A DNA stretch of 32,002 nucleotides from Candidatus Gastranaerophilales bacterium (lineage in GTDB: Bacteria; Cyanobacteriota; Vampirovibrionia; Gastranaerophilales; Gastranaerophilaceae). The position numbers and the translations under genes were made by a program. The stretch is from the NCBI GenBank assembly GCA_944327225.1, contig CALVGZ010000021.1, forward strand, positions 1-32,002. Direction: 5' to 3'. The notes below the pieces were generated by a model. It saw only the letters and a list, made by a program, of their open reading frames with translations, did no database searches and was not told the DNA's origin. Below, one piece after another: positions 7,469 to 18,685 of this stretch (positions are counted from its first letter, which is position 1; every line of letters starts with the position of its first letter).

Positions 7469-8335
7469 ATGACATTAACCGATTGGTTTAATAAAAGAAA
7501 AATGCAGCAAATAGCAGCACGCGACAACGATGTCCATATAGATGATTCAATAGGGAAACTTTGGACGCTTTGTTATAACTGTTCAAGCCAACTACCAAAA
7601 AAAGATTTAGAAAACAATCTTATGGTTTGCCCGAATTGCGACTATCACTTTAGAATAGGGGCCAAAGATAGAATAAAACTAATATCAGACGAAAATAGCT
7701 TTATAGAAATGTTTTCAAATATAAAACCTTGTGATCCATTGGAATTTGTTGACACTCAAAGCTATAAACACCGTCAAGAACAGGCACATGAAAAATCAGG
7801 ACTTGATGAAGCTGTTATAACAGGTACCTGTTTAATTTCAGGGCAAAAAGCAGCAATAGCTGTCATGGATTTTGATTATATGGGCGGGTCTATGGGTTCT
7901 GTAGTAGGAGAAAAAATAACAAGAATTCTTGAATATGCTCTTGAACACAAACTTCCATCAATAGTCTTTACAGCTTCTGGCGGTGCAAGAATGCAAGAAA
8001 GTGCGTTAAGTTTAATGCAAATGGCAAAAACAAGCTGTGCGGTTGCAAAATTAAATGAAGCAAAATTACTCTACATTACTGTACTGTGTGAACCGACTTT
8101 TGGCGGTGTTACGGCTTCTTTCGGAACAATTGGCGATATTATTATAGCAGAAAAAGGTGCTCGTATAGGTTTTGCAGGAAGAAGAGTAATCGAACAAACC
8201 ATAAGACAAAAACTTCCCGCAGACTTTCAAACTGCAGAATATCTTTTAAAATACGGACAAATTGATTTTATAGTTGAAAGAAAAGATATGAAAGAAAAAC
8301 TGGCCAAACTCATTGCACTTCACTCCAATAAATAA
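7469..8335 (+). CDS. accD: Acetyl-CoA carboxylase, carboxyltransferase beta subunit
   Basis: AccD pairs with AccA to move the carboxyl group from carboxybiotin to acetyl-CoA, giving malonyl-CoA. The N-terminal zinc ribbon is visible as C35-x2-C38 and C54-x2-C57 (CYNC...CPNC). The crotonase-like core includes DYMGGSMG, TASGGARMQES and PTFGGVTASFG, all conserved in AccD. It is 288 residues long, as expected. The ATG follows a GGTGAGGA-type ribosome binding site. The stop codon is part of TAAGGA, the ribosome binding site of accA. Confidence 0.97.
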   Translation: MTLTDWFNKRKMQQIAARDNDVHIDDSIGKLWTLCYNCSSQLPKKDLENNLMVCPNCDYHFRIGAKDRIKLISDENSFIEMFSNIKPCDPLEFVDTQSYKHRQEQAHEKSGLDEAVITGTCLISGQKAAIAVMDFDYMGGSMGSVVGEKITRILEYALEHKLPSIVFTASGGARMQESALSLMQMAKTSCAVAKLNEAKLLYITVLCEPTFGGVTASFGTIGDIIIAEKGARIGFAGRRVIEQTIRQKLPADFQTAEYLLKYGQIDFIVERKDMKEKLAKLIALHSNK

Positions 8336-8345
8336 GGAAAATAAA

Positions 8346-9317
8346 ATGAACGAAAATGATCAAAGAGTTCAAATTCTGGAATTTGAAAAACCTATATACA
8401 CAATACAAGATAAAATAGAAGAACTCAAGCAAACAAGTAAAGAAACGCATATTAATTACGATGATGAGATAAAAAAATTGGAAGAGCAAACAAAAGTGTA
8501 CAAAAAAGAATTATACGAAAAACTTGAACCTTATCAAAAACTACAAATTGCAAGACACCCGCAAAGACCGAATTTTATGGATTATGTTCAATTTATGTGT
8601 GAAGACTTTATAGAGCTTCACGGGGACAGGCACGGCTATGATGATAAAGCAATAGCAGGTGGAGTCGCAAGAATCGACGGGCATAACGTAATGCTAATAG
8701 GGACAATGAAAGGTAAATCCACAAAAGAAAATCTTGAATGCAATTTTGGCATGCCTCAACCGCAGGGATACAGAAAAGCCTTAAGATTATTTGAACATGC
8801 AGACAGATTTAATTTACCCATTATTACTTTAATAGATACAATGGGTGCGTATCCAGGCATGAAAGCAGAAGAAACAGGTCAAGGAGAAGCTATCGCTGTA
8901 AATCTTAAAGAAATGGCCAAATTAGGAGTACCAATTATAGCAGTAATTACCGGCGAAGGCTGTTCTGGCGGTGCTTTAGGTTTGGCTGTTGCAAATAAAG
9001 TAATGATATTAGAACACGCATATTATACAGTAATCTCGCCCGAAGGCTGTGCTTCAATTCTTTGGAAAGATGCCTCAATGGCAAAAATAGCAACAAATGC
9101 ACTTAAAATAACAGGCGAAGATTTGCTAAAATATAATATTGTGGATGAAGTAATTAAAGAACCAACAGGCGGAGCTCACTACAGTGCCGAAGAAATGTCC
9201 GGCAACCTAAAAACTTCGCTAATAAATGCACTTAACGAATTTAAAAATATGACATCTGATGAATTGAGAAATCACAGATATTCTAAATTCAGAAACATGG
9301 GTATATTTCAACAGTAA
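8346..9317 (+). CDS. accA: Acetyl-CoA carboxylase, carboxyltransferase alpha subunit
   Basis: This is the alpha partner of AccD. Conserved blocks include IARHPQRPNFMDYV, ELHGDRHGYDD, GRKALRL-like QGYRKALRLFEHADRF, TLIDTMGAYPG, GEGCSGGALGLAVANKV and SPEGCASILWKDA. An upstream in-frame ATG at 8313 would overlap accD. The ATG at 8346 has AAGGAAA at the right distance and matches the family start, giving 323 residues. The next gene, fliP, starts 21 bases after the stop, so accDA and the flagellar export genes probably share transcripts. Confidence 0.97.
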   Translation: MNENDQRVQILEFEKPIYTIQDKIEELKQTSKETHINYDDEIKKLEEQTKVYKKELYEKLEPYQKLQIARHPQRPNFMDYVQFMCEDFIELHGDRHGYDDKAIAGGVARIDGHNVMLIGTMKGKSTKENLECNFGMPQPQGYRKALRLFEHADRFNLPIITLIDTMGAYPGMKAEETGQGEAIAVNLKEMAKLGVPIIAVITGEGCSGGALGLAVANKVMILEHAYYTVISPEGCASILWKDASMAKIATNALKITGEDLLKYNIVDEVIKEPTGGAHYSAEEMSGNLKTSLINALNEFKNMTSDELRNHRYSKFRNMGIFQQ

Positions 9318-9338: not shown

Positions 9339-10097
9339 TTGTTTTTTTCTAAATTTAAAAAATTATGGATAGGATTAGGATTGTATTTTTGCGGAAATTT
9401 AGCGGCAAATGCTGCTTTATCCCTGCCAAATATTAGTATAGGCATGCAAAATATATCGACACCGCAAGAATTTACTCAAGGTGTGCAAATTTTAATTTTG
9501 CTGACGATTCTAACATTAGCTCCGAGCATTATCATAATGACAACAGCATTTATTAGAATCGTAATTGTACTTTCACTTACAAGACAAGCAATAGGAACAA
9601 CAACACTTCCACCAAATCAAGTCATAGTTGGACTTGCATTAATATTAACTTTCTTTGTGATGTCACCTACGTTATCAAAAATAAATGAAACAGCTTATCA
9701 ACCATATATGAAAAATGTAATAACGCAACAACAAGCGCTTGACAATTCACTTGTTCCGATTCGTGATTTTATGTTTAAACAAACACACGAAGAAGAACTT
9801 GCACTTTTTGTCAGATTATCCAAAATTCAAAAACCAAAAACAAAAAAAGATGTCCCGACTTATGTTCTAATTCCGTCATTTGTTTTGTCGGAATTAAAAA
9901 CAGCATTCAAAATAGGTTTTGTTATCTTCCTGCCATTTTTGGTAATAGATTTAGTTGTTGCATCAGTTCTGGTTTCAATGGGTATGATGTTTTTACCGCC
10001 CACAACTATCGCAATGCCTTTTAAATTAATAATGTTTGTAATGGTTGACGGATGGTTTTTAATAACTAAATCACTTGTTGAAGGATTTGCAACTTAA
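9339..10097 (+). CDS. fliP: Flagellar export gate protein FliP
   Basis: FliP forms the core ring of the FliP5-FliQ4-FliR1 export gate in the flagellar basal body. It has an N-terminal signal-peptide-like hydrophobic segment (GLGLYFCGNLAANA), as is usual for FliP, then TAFIRIVIVLSLTRQA and NQVIVGLALILTFFVM, a soluble loop, and the C-terminal FliP signature PSFVLSELKTAFKIGF followed by hydrophobic helices. Length is 252 residues. The start is a TTG with AGG six bases upstream, and no ATG fits. No fliO gene precedes it; accA is directly upstream. Confidence 0.96.
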   Translation: MFFSKFKKLWIGLGLYFCGNLAANAALSLPNISIGMQNISTPQEFTQGVQILILLTILTLAPSIIIMTTAFIRIVIVLSLTRQAIGTTTLPPNQVIVGLALILTFFVMSPTLSKINETAYQPYMKNVITQQQALDNSLVPIRDFMFKQTHEEELALFVRLSKIQKPKTKKDVPTYVLIPSFVLSELKTAFKIGFVIFLPFLVIDLVVASVLVSMGMMFLPPTTIAMPFKLIMFVMVDGWFLITKSLVEGFAT

Positions 10098-10107
10098 AGG
10101 ATGAAAT

Positions 10108-10377
10108 ATGGATGAAGCTTTAATATTAACAGTTTTTCAAAAAACAATTCTGCTCACAATGATAATCGCAGCACCGATATTATTGTCAGCAATAGTAGTA
10201 GGTCTTGCAATAAGCATAATTCAATCGGTAACACAAATCCAAGAACAAACACTGACATTTGTCCCTAAAATATTTGCTGCGTTATTGGTTTTAATTGTTG
10301 CAGCACCTTGGATGATAGATATATTCACAACAACCACAAAAGAATTGTTCGAATATATAAAGGTCTTTATATCCTAA
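10108..10377 (+). CDS. fliQ: Flagellar export gate protein FliQ
   Basis: This 89-residue protein has two hydrophobic helices, the FliQ plan (helix 1 about 14-38, helix 2 about 50-72). Between them lies the conserved ISIIQSVTQIQEQTLTFVPK segment. It assembles around FliP and FliR in the export gate. The ATG at 10108 follows AAAGGATG, in which the fliP stop TAA overlaps the ribosome binding site, indicating coupled translation. Gene order fliP-fliQ-fliR-flhB-flhA is the common one. Confidence 0.96.
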   Translation: MDEALILTVFQKTILLTMIIAAPILLSAIVVGLAISIIQSVTQIQEQTLTFVPKIFAALLVLIVAAPWMIDIFTTTTKELFEYIKVFIS

Positions 10378-10390
10378 AAGGAGATAATAA

Positions 10391-11182
10391 TTGACACAAG
10401 CACCAAATCTTTTAAATCTTTTATCTCCGTACAATATAATTATTTTTATGCTTGTTTTTACAAGAATTACGGGTCTTTTTCAATCAGCACCCTTTTTTTC
10501 AACCATTCAAGCACCTGTTATGACAAAAATTTGGTTTGCGGGAATTATAGCTTTTATTTTATATCCCATAATATATACACAAAAAAGTTTTATTTTACCA
10601 AAAGACGCTGCTGAATTCATAATATTAATTGCAATAGAATTTTTCGTCGGCTATTTAATCGGTTTTATAGCAAACTTAATGTTAGAAGGTGTAAGAATGA
10701 GCGGGAGCATACTTTCAATTCAAATGGGGCTTTCGATGTCTGAAGCACTTGATCCCGCAACAGGTGTCAATGCAACGGAAATATCAAGACTTTATGTGTA
10801 TCTCGCTACACTCATATTTCTTGCAACAGGAGCATACCAATTTCTTTTTGCTTCACTTTTAAACAGCTTTCATGCAGTTCCAATGGGGGTTTTTCCTCTG
10901 CTAAATTCAAATGTTGTAGGTTCAATGCTTGAAATTTTTTCACAATGTTTTAAAATTGCATTTGGGGTTGCCTTTCCAATATTTTCAGTATTACTTATAT
11001 CAGATGTTCTACTCGGAATGATGAGTAAAATGATGCCGCAAATGAATATTTATATGGTTGCAATTCCTGTTAAAATATATATAGGTCTTTTCTTAATGCT
11101 TGCATTTTTAAGTGCAACAAATATATATCTACAAGGAGTTATACAAGAATACATGCGTGCCATTGGTGCGTTATTTACATAA
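10391..11182 (+). CDS. fliR: Flagellar export gate protein FliR
   Basis: FliR completes the export gate with FliP and FliQ. The 263-residue protein is almost entirely hydrophobic helices, with the family segments FTRITGLFQSAPFFS, EFFVGYLIGFIANL, RMSGSILSIQMGLSMS.ALDP and KMMPQMNIYMVAIPVKI. The start is TTG, with AAGGAGA (overlapping the fliQ stop) 6-7 bases upstream; this ribosome binding site makes the non-ATG start convincing. flhB starts three bases after the stop. Confidence 0.95.
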   Translation: MTQAPNLLNLLSPYNIIIFMLVFTRITGLFQSAPFFSTIQAPVMTKIWFAGIIAFILYPIIYTQKSFILPKDAAEFIILIAIEFFVGYLIGFIANLMLEGVRMSGSILSIQMGLSMSEALDPATGVNATEISRLYVYLATLIFLATGAYQFLFASLLNSFHAVPMGVFPLLNSNVVGSMLEIFSQCFKIAFGVAFPIFSVLLISDVLLGMMSKMMPQMNIYMVAIPVKIYIGLFLMLAFLSATNIYLQGVIQEYMRAIGALFT

Positions 11183-11185
11183 ACT

Positions 11186-12262
11186 ATGGCAAACGAACAA
11201 AACGAAAAAACCGAAGAAGCCACCCCGAAACGACGGGAAAAAGAACGAGACAAAGGTCATATCGCAAAAAGTCAAGACTTTACATCATCCCTTGTCCTAA
11301 CATTCGGGCTGGGCTTGATTTATGCAATGGGTTCAGGCATGCTTGAAAAACTAAAAAACATGCTCTTTCAAACACTTTCACACCTGAATCCGAATGAAAT
11401 TTCAGATAATGATGCAATAGGCATACTTACAGTTTATTTTAAGGACTATGCACAAATTACACTTTTGTTCTTCGCATTTCTGGCAATAGCAGCAGCACTA
11501 ATATTAAGATTTCAAACTGGTGCATTATTTGCAAAAGAAGCCCTAAAACCAAACTTTGAAAGACTTTCACCATCATCAGCCATGAAAGCACTACTGGAAA
11601 AAATAAATATTTTTAAACCAAGACAAATGGTAGAACTGATTAAATCAATCGTAAAAACAACAATAGTCGCTATGGTTGGATTTAACGTAATAATGAAACG
11701 AAAAAATGACCTATTTGGTCTTATAGGAGCAGATCCTGCAACAGGTTTTATGGTAATGGGTTCTGTTATATTTGAACTGCTTGCAACAATTTGTATTCTA
11801 TTAATAATAATCGGAATTATTGACAAAAAATACCAAGACTGGGAATACAACAAATCAATTAAAATGTCAAAACAAGAAGTAAAAGATGAATTTAAAAATA
11901 CAGAAGGAGACCCTAAAATCAAAAGTAAAATTCGCTCTTTCCAGATGAAAATTCTTCAACAAAAAATGATGTCAAAAGTTAAAGATGCAGATGTTGTTGT
12001 GGTTAACCCTACGCATTATGCCGTCGCACTAATGTACAACCCTGAAAAAGTCCCCGCTCCTGTCGTGGTAGCAAAAGGAGTTGATTTTATTGCTTTTAAA
12101 ATAAGAGAAATTGCAAAAAATAACGGAATACCAATAGTAGAAAATAAACCATTAGCACGAAGTTTATACAAATTAGTTGAAGTTGATGGTATAATACCAC
12201 AAGAACTATATGTTGCCGTTGCGGAAATTTTACAATACGTTTACGCACAAAAAAGAAGATGA
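11186..12262 (+). CDS. flhB: Flagellar export switch protein FlhB
   Basis: FlhB sits at the export gate and changes substrate specificity from rod/hook to filament proteins after self-cleavage. The autocleavage motif NPTH is present at N274-H277 within VVVNPTHYAVAL. The N-terminus (EKTEEATPKRREKERDKG) and the four hydrophobic segments up to about residue 212 are typical, as is the charged linker 213-268. Length is 358 residues. The ATG is three bases after the fliR stop with no clear ribosome binding site, suggesting translation by coupling to fliR. Confidence 0.97.
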   Translation: MANEQNEKTEEATPKRREKERDKGHIAKSQDFTSSLVLTFGLGLIYAMGSGMLEKLKNMLFQTLSHLNPNEISDNDAIGILTVYFKDYAQITLLFFAFLAIAAALILRFQTGALFAKEALKPNFERLSPSSAMKALLEKINIFKPRQMVELIKSIVKTTIVAMVGFNVIMKRKNDLFGLIGADPATGFMVMGSVIFELLATICILLIIIGIIDKKYQDWEYNKSIKMSKQEVKDEFKNTEGDPKIKSKIRSFQMKILQQKMMSKVKDADVVVVNPTHYAVALMYNPEKVPAPVVVAKGVDFIAFKIREIAKNNGIPIVENKPLARSLYKLVEVDGIIPQELYVAVAEILQYVYAQKRR

Positions 12263-12292: not shown

Positions 12293-14395
12293 TTGGGGAA
12301 GTTAAAGGATTTACTTAAAAATAACGACATAGTGTTGGCAATAGGTCTTGTTACCATTGTTTTAATGATGGTAATTCCTATTCCTGCACAATTACTCGAC
12401 TTATTATTAACCTTAAATATTTCCCTTTCCGTTTTAATACTTCTTGTTTGCTTATACACAAAAGAACCTTTAGAATATTCAAGTTTTCCCACTATTCTTC
12501 TGATAGCAACATTATTCAGATTAGGACTAAACGTTACTTCTACAAGATTAATTCTTCTGGAAGCAAATGCAGGGGCTGTAATTGAGTCATTTGGACAATT
12601 TGTGGTCGGTGGTAATTATGTTGTAGGTGCTGTCATATTTATAATACTTGTTATTATTAATTTTATGGTTATCACCGGCGGTGCAGGAAGAGTTGCGGAA
12701 GTAAGTGCAAGATTTACGTTGGATGCTATGCCCGGAAAACAACTTTCGATTGATGCGGACCTAAACTCCGGATTAATTGATGAAAACGAAGCGAAAAAAA
12801 GAAGAAAAGCCCTTCTGAGAGAAGCTGATTTTTATGGAACCATGGATGGTGCTTCAAAATTTGTAAAAGGTGATGCAACCGCAGGTATTATTATAACGGT
12901 AATTAATATAGTTGGGGGCTTAATCATAGGAATAGTACAAATGAAAATGCAACCAATGACTGCACTTTCAACATACACTATTTTAACCGTCGGAGACGGT
13001 CTTGTTTCTCAAATTCCTGCTTTAATTATATCAACCGCAACCGGCTTGATTATATCACGTGCATCAGGTTCCGATAACTCTCTATCTGAAGATATAAGAA
13101 AAGAAATGTTCCAAAACCCAAAAGTTCTCGGCATTATAAGCGGACTGTTATTTTGTATGGGAATAGTCCCTGGCATGCCGACTATACCGTTTTTGACAAT
13201 TTCAGCCCTCACCGGCGGATTTAGCTACAAAAAATACAAAGAAAAAATTGAAGCTCAAAAACTGGCTCAACAAGCAGAAAAAGATGCAAAAAAAGCGGAA
13301 AAACTTGGTAAAAAGAAGAAAAAAGCGACAAGAGAAAGTGTACTTGAACTTTTAGCGGTTGAAACTTTGGAAATTGAAATAGGCTACAGATTGGTTAGTC
13401 TGTTAGATGTTGAAAAAGGCGGAGATTTATTAGATAGAATTTCTCAAATAAGAAGACAAACAGCCTTGGATTTGGGCATAGTGCTTCCCTCTATTCGTGT
13501 TAGAGACAATTTGCAACTACCCCCAAATACATATCAAATCAAATTAAAAGGAATTACAATAGAAACAGGCGAAGTATATCCAGACAGATTTCTTGCAATG
13601 AATTCCATGGGGGGAGCAGATGACCCCAATGTAGTAGGAATTAGTGCAATAGAACCCGCTTTCCATTTACCTGCAACATGGATTCTTGAAAAGGATAAAG
13701 AATATGCAGAAACGGCAGGCTACACCGTTGTATCATCATCTGCAGTTATTTCAACACATTTAACTGAAGTAATCAAAAAGAATGCCAGTGAAATTCTGAC
13801 ACGTTCGGATGTTCAGCAATTAATAGACAACCTTAAAAAAGAAACCAACGAAACTTATGTTAACGATTTAATGAAAGAATTAACCACGGCGGATATTCAA
13901 CAAGTAATGCAAAATCTTCTTAAAGAACGTGTTTCAATACGTGATATAAAAACAATACTTGAAACAATGAGCCTACAGCATAAAATCAACAAAAACTATA
14001 ACTTCTTAACGGAACAATGCAGACAAGCTCTATGCAGGACTATTTGTAAGCAAAATCTTTCAGACACTGGTGAACTACTTGTTATAACAATGACTCAAGA
14101 AGTTGAACAAGAAATAGCAAAAGGAATAAACCCTGATGGTGAAAGCTTAACTTTAAATCCCGATTTTGTAAAACGCTTGATGGACAGCCTGAATTCGGAA
14201 TTTGAAAAAGCAATACAACAAACCGGAAACCAACCCGTAATCTTATGTTCTTCACCCATAAGGTTGATTTTTAGACGTTTAATTGAAAGAACATACCCAC
14301 AAATAGCAATTATGTCTTATAATGAAGTTACAAACAATGTAAAAGCAAAATCTGTAGGCATCATAAAAGCCAACATAAAAACAGCAGCCATATAA
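12293..14395 (+). CDS. flhA: Flagellar export protein FlhA
   Basis: FlhA is the large nonameric export component that docks chaperone-substrate complexes and couples export to proton flow. The N-terminal half has about eight hydrophobic segments, with the FHIPEP signature between them (RVAEVSARFTLDAMPGKQ and IDADLNSGLID). A charged Ala/Lys linker (about residues 320-350) leads to the cytosolic domain. Length is 700 residues, normal. The start is TTG at 12293. The GGAGGA ribosome binding site is 12 bases upstream, somewhat far, but no better start exists. The PilZ gene follows with a stop-overlapping ribosome binding site (TAAAAGGA). Confidence 0.96.
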   Translation: MGKLKDLLKNNDIVLAIGLVTIVLMMVIPIPAQLLDLLLTLNISLSVLILLVCLYTKEPLEYSSFPTILLIATLFRLGLNVTSTRLILLEANAGAVIESFGQFVVGGNYVVGAVIFIILVIINFMVITGGAGRVAEVSARFTLDAMPGKQLSIDADLNSGLIDENEAKKRRKALLREADFYGTMDGASKFVKGDATAGIIITVINIVGGLIIGIVQMKMQPMTALSTYTILTVGDGLVSQIPALIISTATGLIISRASGSDNSLSEDIRKEMFQNPKVLGIISGLLFCMGIVPGMPTIPFLTISALTGGFSYKKYKEKIEAQKLAQQAEKDAKKAEKLGKKKKKATRESVLELLAVETLEIEIGYRLVSLLDVEKGGDLLDRISQIRRQTALDLGIVLPSIRVRDNLQLPPNTYQIKLKGITIETGEVYPDRFLAMNSMGGADDPNVVGISAIEPAFHLPATWILEKDKEYAETAGYTVVSSSAVISTHLTEVIKKNASEILTRSDVQQLIDNLKKETNETYVNDLMKELTTADIQQVMQNLLKERVSIRDIKTILETMSLQHKINKNYNFLTEQCRQALCRTICKQNLSDTGELLVITMTQEVEQEIAKGINPDGESLTLNPDFVKRLMDSLNSEFEKAIQQTGNQPVILCSSPIRLIFRRLIERTYPQIAIMSYNEVTNNVKAKSVGIIKANIKTAAI

Positions 14396-14407: not shown

Positions 14408-15028
14408 ATGAAAGAATTGCTCCAAACAACAAAAGATTTAAAAATTATACCGAACAATTTTAAAAGCTCTTGTGCGATAAAATTAATTGAGATTAACGAT
14501 AATGAAATAAAAGTTGAACTCTTAAAGCTTAACGAAGATGAGCTAAAAGACTATATTGTTCAAGAAAACGTGGAAGTATTCGGTGTAAATAATGTAGGTT
14601 TAATTTATTTTGAAACAAAAATACTTGCAAAAGAAAACAATATTGTAACGCTAGCTGCAACAAATGATTACAGTCTAATTCAGCGAAGAGAATATTCTCG
14701 TGTAAAATTAAATCAAGGCAATGTATTATTCAAAGATATCTCACCAGAGTGCATATTAAAAGTAGAAGATATTTCAGCAGGCGGTTTAAAAATTATAAGC
14801 TCAACCCCTCTTGAAATCGATAAACACTATCAAATACAAATAAATTTATCAACAAATATGAAAATAAATTGTTGTTTACTGCCCATAAGAATAACCGAAA
14901 CAGAATACCAAAATAAAAAAGCATACGTAATTTCGGGCAAGTTTACAGATTTAGAAAATGTGGACAGGATTGTACTTGTACAATATGCCTTTAAAATTAA
15001 AATGGAAAATCAAAACAAAGAAGATTAA
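14408..15028 (+). CDS. PilZ-domain c-di-GMP receptor, YcgR-like
   Basis: The C-terminal half is a PilZ domain. The RxxxR motif is R94-EYS-R98 (in QRREYSRV) and the D-x-S-x-x-G motif is D121-ISAGG126; together these are the c-di-GMP binding residues. About 85 residues precede it, resembling the N-terminal beta domain of YcgR-type flagellar brake proteins. No membrane segment is seen, so it should be cytosolic. YcgR relatives slow or steer flagella by contacting the motor or stator when c-di-GMP is high. Position directly after flhA (12 bases) supports a motility role. Its target here is inference. Confidence 0.85.
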   Translation: MKELLQTTKDLKIIPNNFKSSCAIKLIEINDNEIKVELLKLNEDELKDYIVQENVEVFGVNNVGLIYFETKILAKENNIVTLAATNDYSLIQRREYSRVKLNQGNVLFKDISPECILKVEDISAGGLKIISSTPLEIDKHYQIQINLSTNMKINCCLLPIRITETEYQNKKAYVISGKFTDLENVDRIVLVQYAFKIKMENQNKED

Positions 15029-15033
15029 TAAAA

Positions 15034-15372
15034 ATGAATAATTCAATATACGAAAGCAAAGAAGAAAAACCAATAAAATATTCAAAAATAATATCATCAT
15101 TATTTTGTTCAAGTTCGATACTTATTCTTTCACTTCTTTGTCTTTTAAATAATTTTTCAATAGATTTATATACCACTACTTTAATGTTAAAAATTGTGTT
15201 ACCTGCATCATTTTGTTTTTGGTTTATAGGTTATATTATAGGAAAAATATTAGACGGTCTAAATACAAAAATTATTGTAAAGAAAATTGCCGAAGAAAAA
15301 AAAGCATACGAAATACCAAGTATGTTTTCAGATAATAGTGAATACAGTAATGATGAGTTTAATATATTATGA
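15034..15372 (+). CDS. Small membrane protein of unknown function
   Basis: I recognise no family. The 112-residue protein has two hydrophobic segments, about 19-41 (SSLFCSSSILILSLLCLL) and 50-72, flanked by charged tails, so it should sit in the inner membrane. The acidic C-terminus ends SEYSNDEFNIL. It lies five bases after the PilZ gene, and its stop overlaps the histidine kinase start by ATGA, so it is translated together with the signalling genes. It could be an accessory subunit of the kinase or of the flagellar motor; nothing in the sequence decides this. Confidence 0.75.
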   Translation: MNNSIYESKEEKPIKYSKIISSLFCSSSILILSLLCLLNNFSIDLYTTTLMLKIVLPASFCFWFIGYIIGKILDGLNTKIIVKKIAEEKKAYEIPSMFSDNSEYSNDEFNIL

Positions 15373-16994
15373 AAAAATTTAATCTCAAATTAAAATCAAT
15401 AAGATTAAGTGTATACTTTGCAGTCCTGCTTAGTATCATAATTATCGTTACAACATCACTTTTTGCAGTTTATACAATGTTTAATATAAAAAATCTCGCA
15501 AGTGAATATGAGTCGGACATATATAAACTAAGATATTCTCTCTCAACAATACTTGTTCAATCATTAATTATAGACACTAAAAGAAATAATTTTGAAGCTA
15601 CAAAAAGTATTATTGACCTACTAAAAAAAGATAACTTATTATCCTATACCTATGTAAAAGATAATAATACAGGGAAAATTATTCTAGGTGATTATTCGCA
15701 AAACACAATGTTAGAAAACTATAAACCTGATACAAAGCAAAGCGTTCAAAAACTAACTAAAACAATAGGGGAATATACCGTATATTTTGGTATACCTGCC
15801 AAAAATCACATGGATGTTTATTATGAAAGCTTTTTTGAAATGATAACAAACATCCTTACGCTATTTATTGTTTTCGGTATAGCAGTGAGCGTTATGATGT
15901 CAGGTATTATTTCAAAACCGCTAGAAAGATTATCCAAAGCAGCAAAAGAAATAACTGACGGAAATTTTGATGTGCAAATTCCAAAAACAAACTTTACGGA
16001 AATTAATGAACTTATAAATTCTTATAACGAAATGGGACTTCAACTGAATGAACTATATTCGTCATTAGAACTAAAAGTTCAAGAAAGAACGGTGGCTCTT
16101 GAAGCTGCAAACTATAAATTACAAGAAACTCAAGCTATGATGGTGCATTCTGAAAAAATGAGATCACTAGGTGAACTTGTTGCAGGAATTGCTCATGAAA
16201 TTAATAACCCGGTTAATTTTATCCATGGAAATATAATGATTCTGCAAAATTACGTAGATGACCTATTAAGATTAATAGATTTATATGAAGAAAATAATAT
16301 AAATTTTCCTGAAGACATAAAAACAAAAATCGAAGCACTAAAAAAAGAAATAGATCTTGATTTTCTGAGAGGGGATATAAAAGATTTAATAAAAAGCTGC
16401 ATAGAAGGTACTCAAAGAACAAAAAATATTGTACTGGATTTAAAAAACTTCTCAAGAATGGAAGAAAGAGTACTAACACAGCTTGACATTCCAAAAGAAA
16501 TCGATACAACATTGAATATTTTAAACAATAAATACAAAAACAGAATCACTGTTATAAAAAACTATTCACCTGATACGCCCAAAATTGAAGCTTATGGCGG
16601 ACAGCTAAACCAAGTATTTATGAATATACTTGATAATGCACAAGATGCTATGGGAGAAAAGGGCACCCTAACAATTAATGTATATAAAGAGCATTCAAAA
16701 GTTAAAATAGAATTTATAGATACAGGAAAGGGAATTCCGGAAGAAAATCTTAAAAAAGTATTCGACCCCTTTTTTACAACCAAACCAGTAGGAAAAGGTA
16801 CAGGATTAGGTATGAGTATTTCATACAGAGTAATCAATGACCATCACGGAACTATTGAAGTTGAATCAAAAGTAAATGCGGGAACAAAGTTTACAATCAC
16901 ACTGCCAATAAATCAGGACGCAAAAGAAGAAACAATGGAAGAAAAAATAATAAATGACTTACGCGAAGAAAACGGAGTTAAGGAAAATGACTGA
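15369..16994 (+). CDS. Membrane sensor histidine kinase with HAMP domain
   Basis: A first membrane segment (about 13-37) and a second (about 160-182) bracket an extracytoplasmic sensor domain of about 120 residues. A HAMP domain (about 180-235) and a coiled coil follow. The H-box is GIAHEINNPVNF with H276 the phosphorylated histidine. The N-box (NQVFMNILDNAQDAM), G1 (DTGKGIP) and G2 (GKGTGLGMSI) are intact, so it should be an active kinase. The ligand is unknown. It overlaps its upstream neighbour (ATGA) and the downstream response regulator by eight bases, so the regulator is almost certainly its partner. Confidence 0.94.
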   Translation: MKKFNLKLKSIRLSVYFAVLLSIIIIVTTSLFAVYTMFNIKNLASEYESDIYKLRYSLSTILVQSLIIDTKRNNFEATKSIIDLLKKDNLLSYTYVKDNNTGKIILGDYSQNTMLENYKPDTKQSVQKLTKTIGEYTVYFGIPAKNHMDVYYESFFEMITNILTLFIVFGIAVSVMMSGIISKPLERLSKAAKEITDGNFDVQIPKTNFTEINELINSYNEMGLQLNELYSSLELKVQERTVALEAANYKLQETQAMMVHSEKMRSLGELVAGIAHEINNPVNFIHGNIMILQNYVDDLLRLIDLYEENNINFPEDIKTKIEALKKEIDLDFLRGDIKDLIKSCIEGTQRTKNIVLDLKNFSRMEERVLTQLDIPKEIDTTLNILNNKYKNRITVIKNYSPDTPKIEAYGGQLNQVFMNILDNAQDAMGEKGTLTINVYKEHSKVKIEFIDTGKGIPEENLKKVFDPFFTTKPVGKGTGLGMSISYRVINDHHGTIEVESKVNAGTKFTITLPINQDAKEETMEEKIINDLREENGVKEND

Positions 16995-18018
16995 TAAAAG
17001 ATACAGGATTTTAATAGTTGACGATGAAGAAGATAATTTGGCACTTTTATATAGAACTCTTCGCTCAAAATACGATATAACAAAAGCAAGCAGTGCAATT
17101 GAAGCACTTGAAATAATGAAAACAGAAAAGTTTGATTGTATTTTATCTGACCACAAAATGCCCATTATGGACGGCGTTGAATTCTTAAAAAGAGTTTATG
17201 ATATGCAGCCAAAAACAATGAGACTCTTGGTTACTGCTTATTCTGACGTCAAGATATTAATTGATGCCATAAATTATGCAAAAATATACAGATACATTAA
17301 AAAGCCGTACACACCCGACGAACTTTTGATGATTGTTGAATCAGCACTTGAATGTTATCAATTAAAAATAGACAACGAAAATCTTATTACGGATTTAAAA
17401 GACTTATTTTCAGGAACAATAAAAGCTATTATTGAGGCACTGGACGCAAAAGATTCATTTACTCTCGGAAGAAGCAGAAGAGTAGCTTTTTATGCACTAA
17501 AAATAGTCAACAAATTAGCACTAAGCCCTAAAGAAGTCAGTCAAATTGAATTAGCGGGGCTTTTGCACGATATAGGTATGATTGGTGTCGCAGAAGAAAT
17601 TTTAAATAAAACCCAAAAATTAACAGATGAAGAATACGACAAAATAAAAATGCATGTGCATTATAGTGTTAAAATTCTTGAAGACATTAAACAATTATAT
17701 GAAATAACAGAAATAATAAAATATCACCACGAATACTATAACGGATGCGGATATCCCTACGGTTTAAAAGGTGAAGAAATTCCTCTGGGTTCAAGAATTA
17801 TTGCAATAGCGGATGCTTATGATTCACTTGTATCAAACAGAGCATATAGAAAAAGTCTAAGCTCAGAAGAAGCTGTAAAAATATTGCAACAAGGTGCAGG
17901 GAAACAATTTGATCCCGATTTAGTTCAGATATTTATGAGTATTCTTCCTGATGCAATAGAAGAAATCAAAGAATACGAAAAAGGACATCCAATAGAAAGT
18001 TTTAATGAGAACAATTGA
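16987..18018 (+). CDS. Response regulator with HD-GYP domain
   Basis: The receiver domain (1-120) has acidic D12/D13, phosphoacceptor D55 (LSDHKMP), T83 and K106. The HD-GYP domain (about 140-335) has H194-D195 (GLLHDIG), H223, HHEYYNGCGYP (247-257) and the late aspartates in IADAYDS. HD-GYP proteins usually hydrolyse c-di-GMP using a two- or three-metal centre. The first metal-ligand histidine, expected in a T-x-x-H-S-x-R-V block, is arginine here (TLGRSRRV, R162), so activity may be altered or lost. An ATG at 16954 is possible, but the one at 16987 has AAGGAA upstream and gives the standard receiver start. It is coupled to the kinase before it and overlaps the ATPase after it by 14 bases. 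Confidence 0.93.
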   Translation: MTDKRYRILIVDDEEDNLALLYRTLRSKYDITKASSAIEALEIMKTEKFDCILSDHKMPIMDGVEFLKRVYDMQPKTMRLLVTAYSDVKILIDAINYAKIYRYIKKPYTPDELLMIVESALECYQLKIDNENLITDLKDLFSGTIKAIIEALDAKDSFTLGRSRRVAFYALKIVNKLALSPKEVSQIELAGLLHDIGMIGVAEEILNKTQKLTDEEYDKIKMHVHYSVKILEDIKQLYEITEIIKYHHEYYNGCGYPYGLKGEEIPLGSRIIAIADAYDSLVSNRAYRKSLSSEEAVKILQQGAGKQFDPDLVQIFMSILPDAIEEIKEYEKGHPIESFNENN

Positions 18019-18685
18019 AATATACACAGGTGCGTATGCGTCAGGAAAAAGTGAAAACGCACTTAACAGAGCAATAGAATTTACAAAACAACACAAAGAA
18101 ATAACGCTTGTTGATTTAGATACAGTAGAACCAGCATATTGCATGCGTCCTATTGAAAAAAAATTAAAAGCTTACGGGATAAATTTAATACTGCAATCAG
18201 ATTACTTTGGACTGGGCGAAGCCGGAAGCTATGTTACAAACGAACAAATCAATTGCCTTAAATCAACCAATAAGGATATAATAATTGATATAGGATATGG
18301 AGTAACAGGATTAGACACTTTAGATATACTAACAGATATAGACGAAGAAAAAAATATACAAATATATCTGGTTGTTAATACTTCAAAATTTGAAACAAAA
18401 GATAAAGAATCAATAATCGAATACATTGAATTCAACAGTGGAGAAAATAAAAAACCTTGGAAAAAAATAACCGGTCTTATCTCAAACACTCACCTGGGAA
18501 ACGAAACAACCATAGATGACATAACAAGGGGATATAACATAATAAAACAAGTTTCCGAGACAACCAAAATTCCAATTATCGCAATAAGCGTTGACGAAAA
18601 ATTCAAACAAGAATTTCCATTACAAAACTACGACAATGTACCGGTAAGATTTCTTAAAAGACACATGCCAGAAGCTTTATGGTAA
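18005..18685 (+). CDS. P-loop ATPase, MinD/ParA-like superfamily
   Basis: This 226-residue soluble protein has a Walker A motif TGAYASGKS (G9-S16) and a following VDLDTVEPAYCMR, the pattern of SIMIBI-class (CobQ/MinD/ParA-like) ATPases, with DIIIDIGYG as likely Walker B. It lacks the extra N-terminal lysine of true MinD/FlhG Walker A motifs (KGGxGKT), so I do not call it FlhG. Similar single-domain ATP-binding proteins of unknown function occur in other bacteria. The start lies inside the HD-GYP gene (14-base overlap), tying it to the signalling cassette. It is the last gene of the run and its stop almost touches a convergent gene. Confidence 0.82.
   Translation: MRTIEIYTGAYASGKSENALNRAIEFTKQHKEITLVDLDTVEPAYCMRPIEKKLKAYGINLILQSDYFGLGEAGSYVTNEQINCLKSTNKDIIIDIGYGVTGLDTLDILTDIDEEKNIQIYLVVNTSKFETKDKESIIEYIEFNSGENKKPWKKITGLISNTHLGNETTIDDITRGYNIIKQVSETTKIPIIAISVDEKFKQEFPLQNYDNVPVRFLKRHMPEALW

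Follow-up and report, generated by a model that had tools for sequence, protein, structure and literature searches.

Introduction

In systems of the RpfC/RpfG type, a kinase is paired with a response regulator in which a receiver is joined to an HD-GYP domain. Receptors of the YcgR/MotI type (YpfA, DgrA) act as a brake or clutch on the flagellar motor. In the flagellar operons of Lachnospiraceae, a pilZ gene is found with the fli genes in a fliO-to-pilZ cluster (PMC3720852). Loss of flagella in the order investigated here, and in Melainabacteria, has already been reported (PMC4040986, PMC5877343); a search for c-di-GMP in the text of these two papers returned no match.

Here we examine a gene run in a Candidatus Gastranaerophilales bacterium in which a PilZ receptor and a kinase/HD-GYP pair lie behind the flagellar export gate. 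The window (the whole stretch analysed) comprises 32,002 nucleotides of contig CALVGZ010000021.1 (assembly GCA_944327225.1) and was compared with 117 genomes of the order and 386 of the phylum. A sequence-only reading had taken five of its genes for a complete c-di-GMP cassette forming one motility-control module. We conclude instead that the 3' end of a long operon-like run is probably composed of separate functional layers: a flagellar membrane protein (TM), a PilZ receptor, a histidine kinase-response regulator relay (HK-RR) and an optional NTPase.

Results

The five genes terminate a run headed by accD

The following features of the run were annotated.

7469..8335, plus strand: accD-like gene, acetyl-CoA carboxylase carboxyltransferase beta (Pfam Carboxyl_trans and Zn_ribbon_ACC); heads the same-strand run
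8313..9317, plus strand: accA (Pfam ACCA, 5.4e-140); upstream border of the flagellar block
9339..12262, plus strand: fliP, fliQ, fliR and flhB of the flagellar export gate (Pfam; flhB above the TIGR00328 cut-off)
12293..14395, plus strand: flhA, true flagellar orthologue (TIGR01398, 852.9 bits against a cut-off of 772.1)
14251..14272, plus strand: 22-base stretch of flhA, exact counterpart of a relic in genome G095
14408..15028, plus strand: PilZ, receptor of YcgR/MotI type (Pfam PilZ, 2.3e-7; RxxxR and (D/N)xSxGG-type motif intact)
15034..15372, plus strand: TM, two-helix membrane protein (alignment A1, hydropathy, phylogenetic profile, structure model)
15369..16994, plus strand: HK, membrane histidine kinase HAMP-HisKA-HATPase_c (Pfam; invariant H276 and ATP-binding residues)
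16987..18018, plus strand: RR, receiver-HD-GYP response regulator (Pfam; phospho-acceptor D55, HD/HHE/GYP motifs)
18005..18685, plus strand: P-loop NTPase with GAYASGKSE and LVDLDTVEPAY motifs (alignment A5; SIMIBI fold matches)

All five open reading frames behind flhA lie where they had been placed, with gaps of 12 bases or less and the last four overlapping: flhA-PilZ gap 12, PilZ-TM gap 5, then overlaps of 4 (TM/HK, the sequence ATGA), 8 (HK/RR) and 14 bases (RR/NTPase). The 8-base overlap assumes that RR starts at the ATG downstream of an AAGGAA Shine-Dalgarno-like run; an alternative in-frame ATG is present at 16954. The tight coupling is borne out in a relative, G093, in which the corresponding spacing is 12, 6, -4, -8 and -14 and the packing therefore conserved. 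The genes are indeed tightly packed behind flhA, but the run begins with accD (7469) and not with flhA: the same-strand order is accD-accA-fliP-fliQ-fliR-flhB-flhA-PilZ-TM-HK-RR-NTPase, so that PilZ is preceded by seven genes. The gap between accA and fliP measures 21 bases, and an accDA-headed flagellar run is also found across the genus and in G091. A promoter and terminator scan returned 54 promoter-like sites against 58.4 expected from shuffles and, being at shuffle level, is silent on transcript borders. On the minus strand, at the contig edge (9-209), an open frame of 88 residues gave a short match to the flagellin N-terminus.

Pfam matches above cut-off were obtained for FHIPEP (flhA), PilZ, HAMP/HisKA/HATPase_c (HK) and Response_reg/HD_5 (RR), while searches of Pfam and NCBIfam assigned neither TM nor the NTPase to a curated family above cut-off. 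Both flhA and flhB are of flagellar and not injectisome type by Pfam and NCBIfam; the SctV model scored 638.1 for flhA against a cut-off of 692.25, so that this gene qualifies as an FlhA equivalog only.

The cassette had been described as complete. It encodes no GGDEF protein or diguanylate cyclase, and that description is therefore wrong: what is present is a receptor and a degrading branch. The genome contains eight GGDEF matches, all outside the cassette. Elsewhere in it, a second receiver-HD-GYP regulator (G000:C9:6360-7340, L071) with 47% identity to RR, found in relatives too, is separated by roughly 2 kb from the GGDEF protein at C9:9594-10085.

TM is confined to genomes with the flagellar export gate

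TM is 112 residues long and carries the motif PAxxxxGxLGxxIGKIxD. A profile built from alignment A1 gave strong matches in 54 of the 386 phylum genomes, all of this order, and a search for flhA in the same 386 genomes returned, within the order, the identical 54. The proposed link of the membrane protein to flagella is thereby supported. TM was present in 21/21 flagellates of the window's own family in the order sample; in the outer families it has diverged and was identified from its position together with alignment A1. Strong matches were absent from 15 flhA-bearing genomes outside the order. In one of another order of the class (G361), however, a homologue (PGAILGGVLGYVVGDMLD; E=5.5e-5) lies directly 3' of flhA with no HK, and was accepted as real on account of this position and the presence of the same motif. 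Matches outside the class had E values above 2e-4, lay inside longer open reading frames and were treated as chance.

By distribution, TM is a flagellar protein, and constitutes a small new family tracking the flagellar export gate. Hydropathy analysis indicated two hydrophobic segments in most members. AlphaFold predicts two long helices, at 16-40 and 45-91, but with low confidence (pLDDT 66); a PDB sequence search gave no match. Its adjacency to flhA suggests that TM probably assists the FlhA/FliPQR export gate or the basal body, and the conserved G-x3-G face of the second helix could pack onto another membrane helix.

PilZ, HK and RR do not follow flhA

Among the 117 order genomes, the flhA orthologue (at least 66% identity) was clearly distinct from a second FHIPEP protein (37-41% identity). 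A PilZ homologue was present in 111/117, and the same 38/117 carried both HK and RR, which are an inseparable pair. HK and flhA occurred together in 31 genomes, HK without flhA in 7, flhA only in 9 and neither in 70, an association with a nominal Fisher p of 8e-14 that ignores phylogeny; co-occurrence inside one order is partly due to shared ancestry. Across all sampled genomes, 17 had HK without flhA and 19 flagellates had no HK. Of the five genes, TM alone is present and lost together with flagella; PilZ, HK, RR and the NTPase do not follow flhA.

The order flhA-PilZ-TM-HK-RR could be read in families f1, f4, f5 and f7, which indicates that the arrangement is old within the order, and named loci of Candidatus Gastranaerophilales MAGs from a genome collection show the same gene order. 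Scattering in relatives had been named as an outcome that would count against a linked cassette. Conservation next to flhA holds in several families and in the named MAGs; the exceptions are G006 and G304, in which the cassette is located away from flhA with TM still beside HK-RR, so that scattering is found in part. In G006 (L195, G006:C10:14000-28000), TM-HK-RR is convergent to a second fliP-fliQ-fliR-like set (FliP 44%), a possible hint of a tie between the relay and a second export system. Outside the class, flhA adjoins PilZ in three further genomes of the phylum (G130, G143 and G151; L187, L188 and L190). Together with the Lachnospiraceae pilZ (PMC3720852), these show that the flhA-PilZ pairing is not itself new. 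Outgroup kinases (L118 onward) have neither flhA nor PilZ alongside and are thus not orthologous contexts.

The products of the retained genes appear intact. In 31 PilZ homologues, including some from flagella-less genomes, R94, R98, G125 and G126 are invariant, and the domain, with RxxxR and (D/N)xSxxG motifs, conforms to a YcgR/MotI-type receptor. Profile comparison identified YpfA of B. subtilis (1.2e-13) and the flagellar brake YcgR (1.9e-6) as solved relatives. The N-terminus matched PilZNR at 14.2 bits, below the Pfam cut-off of 23, and the family profile aligns with YcgR structures over positions 3-178. H276 and the ATP-binding residues of HK are invariant in 23 orthologues, as are the RR phospho-acceptor D55 and the HD, HHE and GYP motifs in 24, non-flagellates included in both cases, and this speaks for a pair that still works in the absence of flagella. 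The best NCBIfam regulator model for RR was the NosR family NF053512 (288 of 400 bits, below cut-off). Among HD-GYP proteins of solved structure, the nearest is a phosphodiesterase of 3'3'-cGAMP, so that by sequence c-di-GMP is only one candidate substrate.

Flagellar genes have been deleted from between accA and PilZ

Two genomes of the window's own genus, G089 (contig of 152 kb) and G095 (contig of 345 kb), possess the arrangement accD-accA-PilZ-HK-RR. The flanks are unchanged on both the rsgA and the ndk-tgt sides; fliP, fliQ, fliR, flhB, flhA, TM and the NTPase are absent from the site, and no flhA orthologue was found elsewhere in either genome. G114 and G313 have the same accDA-PilZ junction with no fliP/fliQ/fliR/flhB between (junctions in loci L049, L050, L051 and L200).

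Within the 135 bases that separate accA from PilZ in G095, a stretch of 22 bases is identical to part of flhA (L050:7312-7333), a length reached by 0/500 shuffles. This relic indicates that the flagellar genes were deleted at the site. No relic above chance was detected in G089 or G114. Flagellin was not found in G089, G114, G105, G109, G313 or G275; G095 encodes one orphan flagellin (G095:C1:201268-201672) despite having no flhA orthologue.

PilZ-HK-RR is retained in genus g20 in another neighbourhood, and G016 (87% complete, no flhA or TM) has kept HK-RR with no adjacent PilZ. Fitch parsimony on the HK+RR tree required at least six changes of flagellar state; if flagella were never regained, we infer approximately seven losses, G016 included. 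Slow loss alone could preserve PilZ-HK-RR for a while. The intact motifs, the several separate losses and the retention across g20 argue against mere slow loss.

The NTPase adjoins RR in a minority of genomes

The NTPase represents a conserved family of 226 residues (alignment A5), detected in 27/117 order genomes at E<=0.001, or 26 once a weak match in G099 is set aside. Only in a minority is it found beside RR (G000, G093, G098, G091, G005, G313 and the named loci L104-L106); the genes around it in other genomes are unrelated, and its proposed membership of the module is not supported. Six genomes of the window's own family have the NTPase with neither an flhA orthologue nor HK (G014, G036, G039, G042, G047 and G092). 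Its neighbours elsewhere, considered as a functional clue, were judged by eye to be unrelated (fusA-, xer-, aroB-, thrB-like and others), with no pattern.

The structure model (pLDDT 84) gave its best Foldseek matches to SIMIBI proteins, including Ffh, FtsY, ATPase-type HypB and FlhG; a PDB sequence search gave no match. A role as a placement ATPase resembling FlhG/MinD was considered and rejected, there being no Pfam family above cut-off, no PDB sequence match and presence without flagella; occurrence without flagella shows that it is not an FlhG equivalent. We regard the NTPase as optional at this locus, presumably a gene of SIMIBI type added to the end of the run.

A second FlhA/SctV-like protein is kept without flagella

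A second FlhA/SctV-like protein, whose scores fall short of the FlhA and SctV cut-offs alike, occurs throughout the order, flagella-less genomes included, with G045 the sole weak case. The copy in the window's own genome (G000:C8:25180-27213; L069:15166-17253, minus strand) lies with FliH-like and FliF-C-terminal-like genes, near a chemosensory cluster containing a CheW/CheA hybrid. This is a second, non-canonical export system that is kept without flagella.

Discussion

The best reading of the locus is a nested operon, comprising a flagellar part (flhA and TM) and a c-di-GMP relay (PilZ, HK and HD-GYP regulator) whose output is not only swimming. HK would sense through its extracytoplasmic loop and phosphorylate D55 of RR. 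Its HD-GYP domain would then hydrolyse c-di-GMP or a similar cyclic dinucleotide, so that less PilZ is occupied; we infer this enzymatic direction, and the messenger would be supplied by cyclases encoded elsewhere. As a receptor of YcgR/MotI type, PilZ should bind c-di-GMP and, in flagellates, act as a brake or clutch on the motor; in these bacteria the relay would favour motility. Its survival in non-flagellates implies a further target of PilZ besides the motor, and after repeated flagellar loss the relay may still be selected for some different output, perhaps one related to the surface.

The main alternative is the original proposal of a single module dedicated to motility control, with all five products acting on the flagellum. 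The strict link of TM to the flagellum, the brake-type PilZ, the tight coupling of the genes, an old order shared by several families and the association of HK with flhA all speak for it, and these elements of the proposal stand. However, PilZ, HK and RR outlive flhA and TM in several lineages, 19 sampled flagellates manage without HK, and in most genomes the NTPase has no link to the locus. We therefore consider a single module unlikely.

A more specific and quite speculative extension is that, in flagella-less gut lineages, the brake-type PilZ with its private kinase and HD-GYP regulator has been re-targeted to a different machine of the envelope, which might be the second, non-canonical FlhA/SctV-type export apparatus, TM being an unnamed, class-specific partner of the flagellar export gate.

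It is improbable that the run is an accident of genome streamlining, with unrelated genes on a common promoter and HK-RR the only functional link. The fatty-acid genes accD-accA at its head have no known tie to flagella and the NTPase resembles a passer-by, yet flhA adjoins PilZ outside the class, the pilZ of Lachnospiraceae resides with fli genes, and TM co-occurs with flhA without exception in the order. That TM is an accessory sensor subunit of HK rather than a flagellar protein might be read from the ATGA overlap and from G006 and G304, where it stays with HK-RR and flhA lies elsewhere, but is very improbable given that TM is present in the 19 HK-less flagellates and in G017, lies beside flhA without HK in G361, and occurs in none of the 17 HK-bearing genomes that lack flhA.

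Layered genes with separate fates thus remain the reading that we favour. Several separate flagellar losses at a shared locus constitute a natural experiment that sorts flagellar from non-flagellar genes; gene adjacency alone would misassign a brake-type PilZ and a messenger-degrading two-component system to the flagellum. New here are the TM family and the natural deletions, which demonstrate that bacteria no longer able to swim retain the PilZ-HK-HD-GYP relay.

Comparison with known systems

The NTPase shares the P-loop fold of the SIMIBI NTPases FlhG/MinD, SRP and HypB, but at approximately 13-19% identity and with TM-scores of about 0.5-0.6. As in RpfC/RpfG, the genes for a kinase and a receiver-HD-GYP regulator lie side by side; here, however, the sensor is a simple HAMP kinase that lacks hybrid domains, and no rpfF-like synthase was seen nearby. 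The Lachnospiraceae cluster resembles the present run in having pilZ within the export-gate part of a flagellar cluster (PMC3720852), but there che genes and fliA follow downstream, whereas here TM, the kinase and the HD-GYP regulator lie downstream and accD-accA upstream. The receptor resembles YcgR/MotI in size, in a C-terminal PilZ domain with RxxxR and in adjoining export genes, and its N-terminus may be YcgR-like. In contrast to those receptors, PilZ is retained here in nearly all flagella-less relatives, and motor braking is therefore not its sole role.
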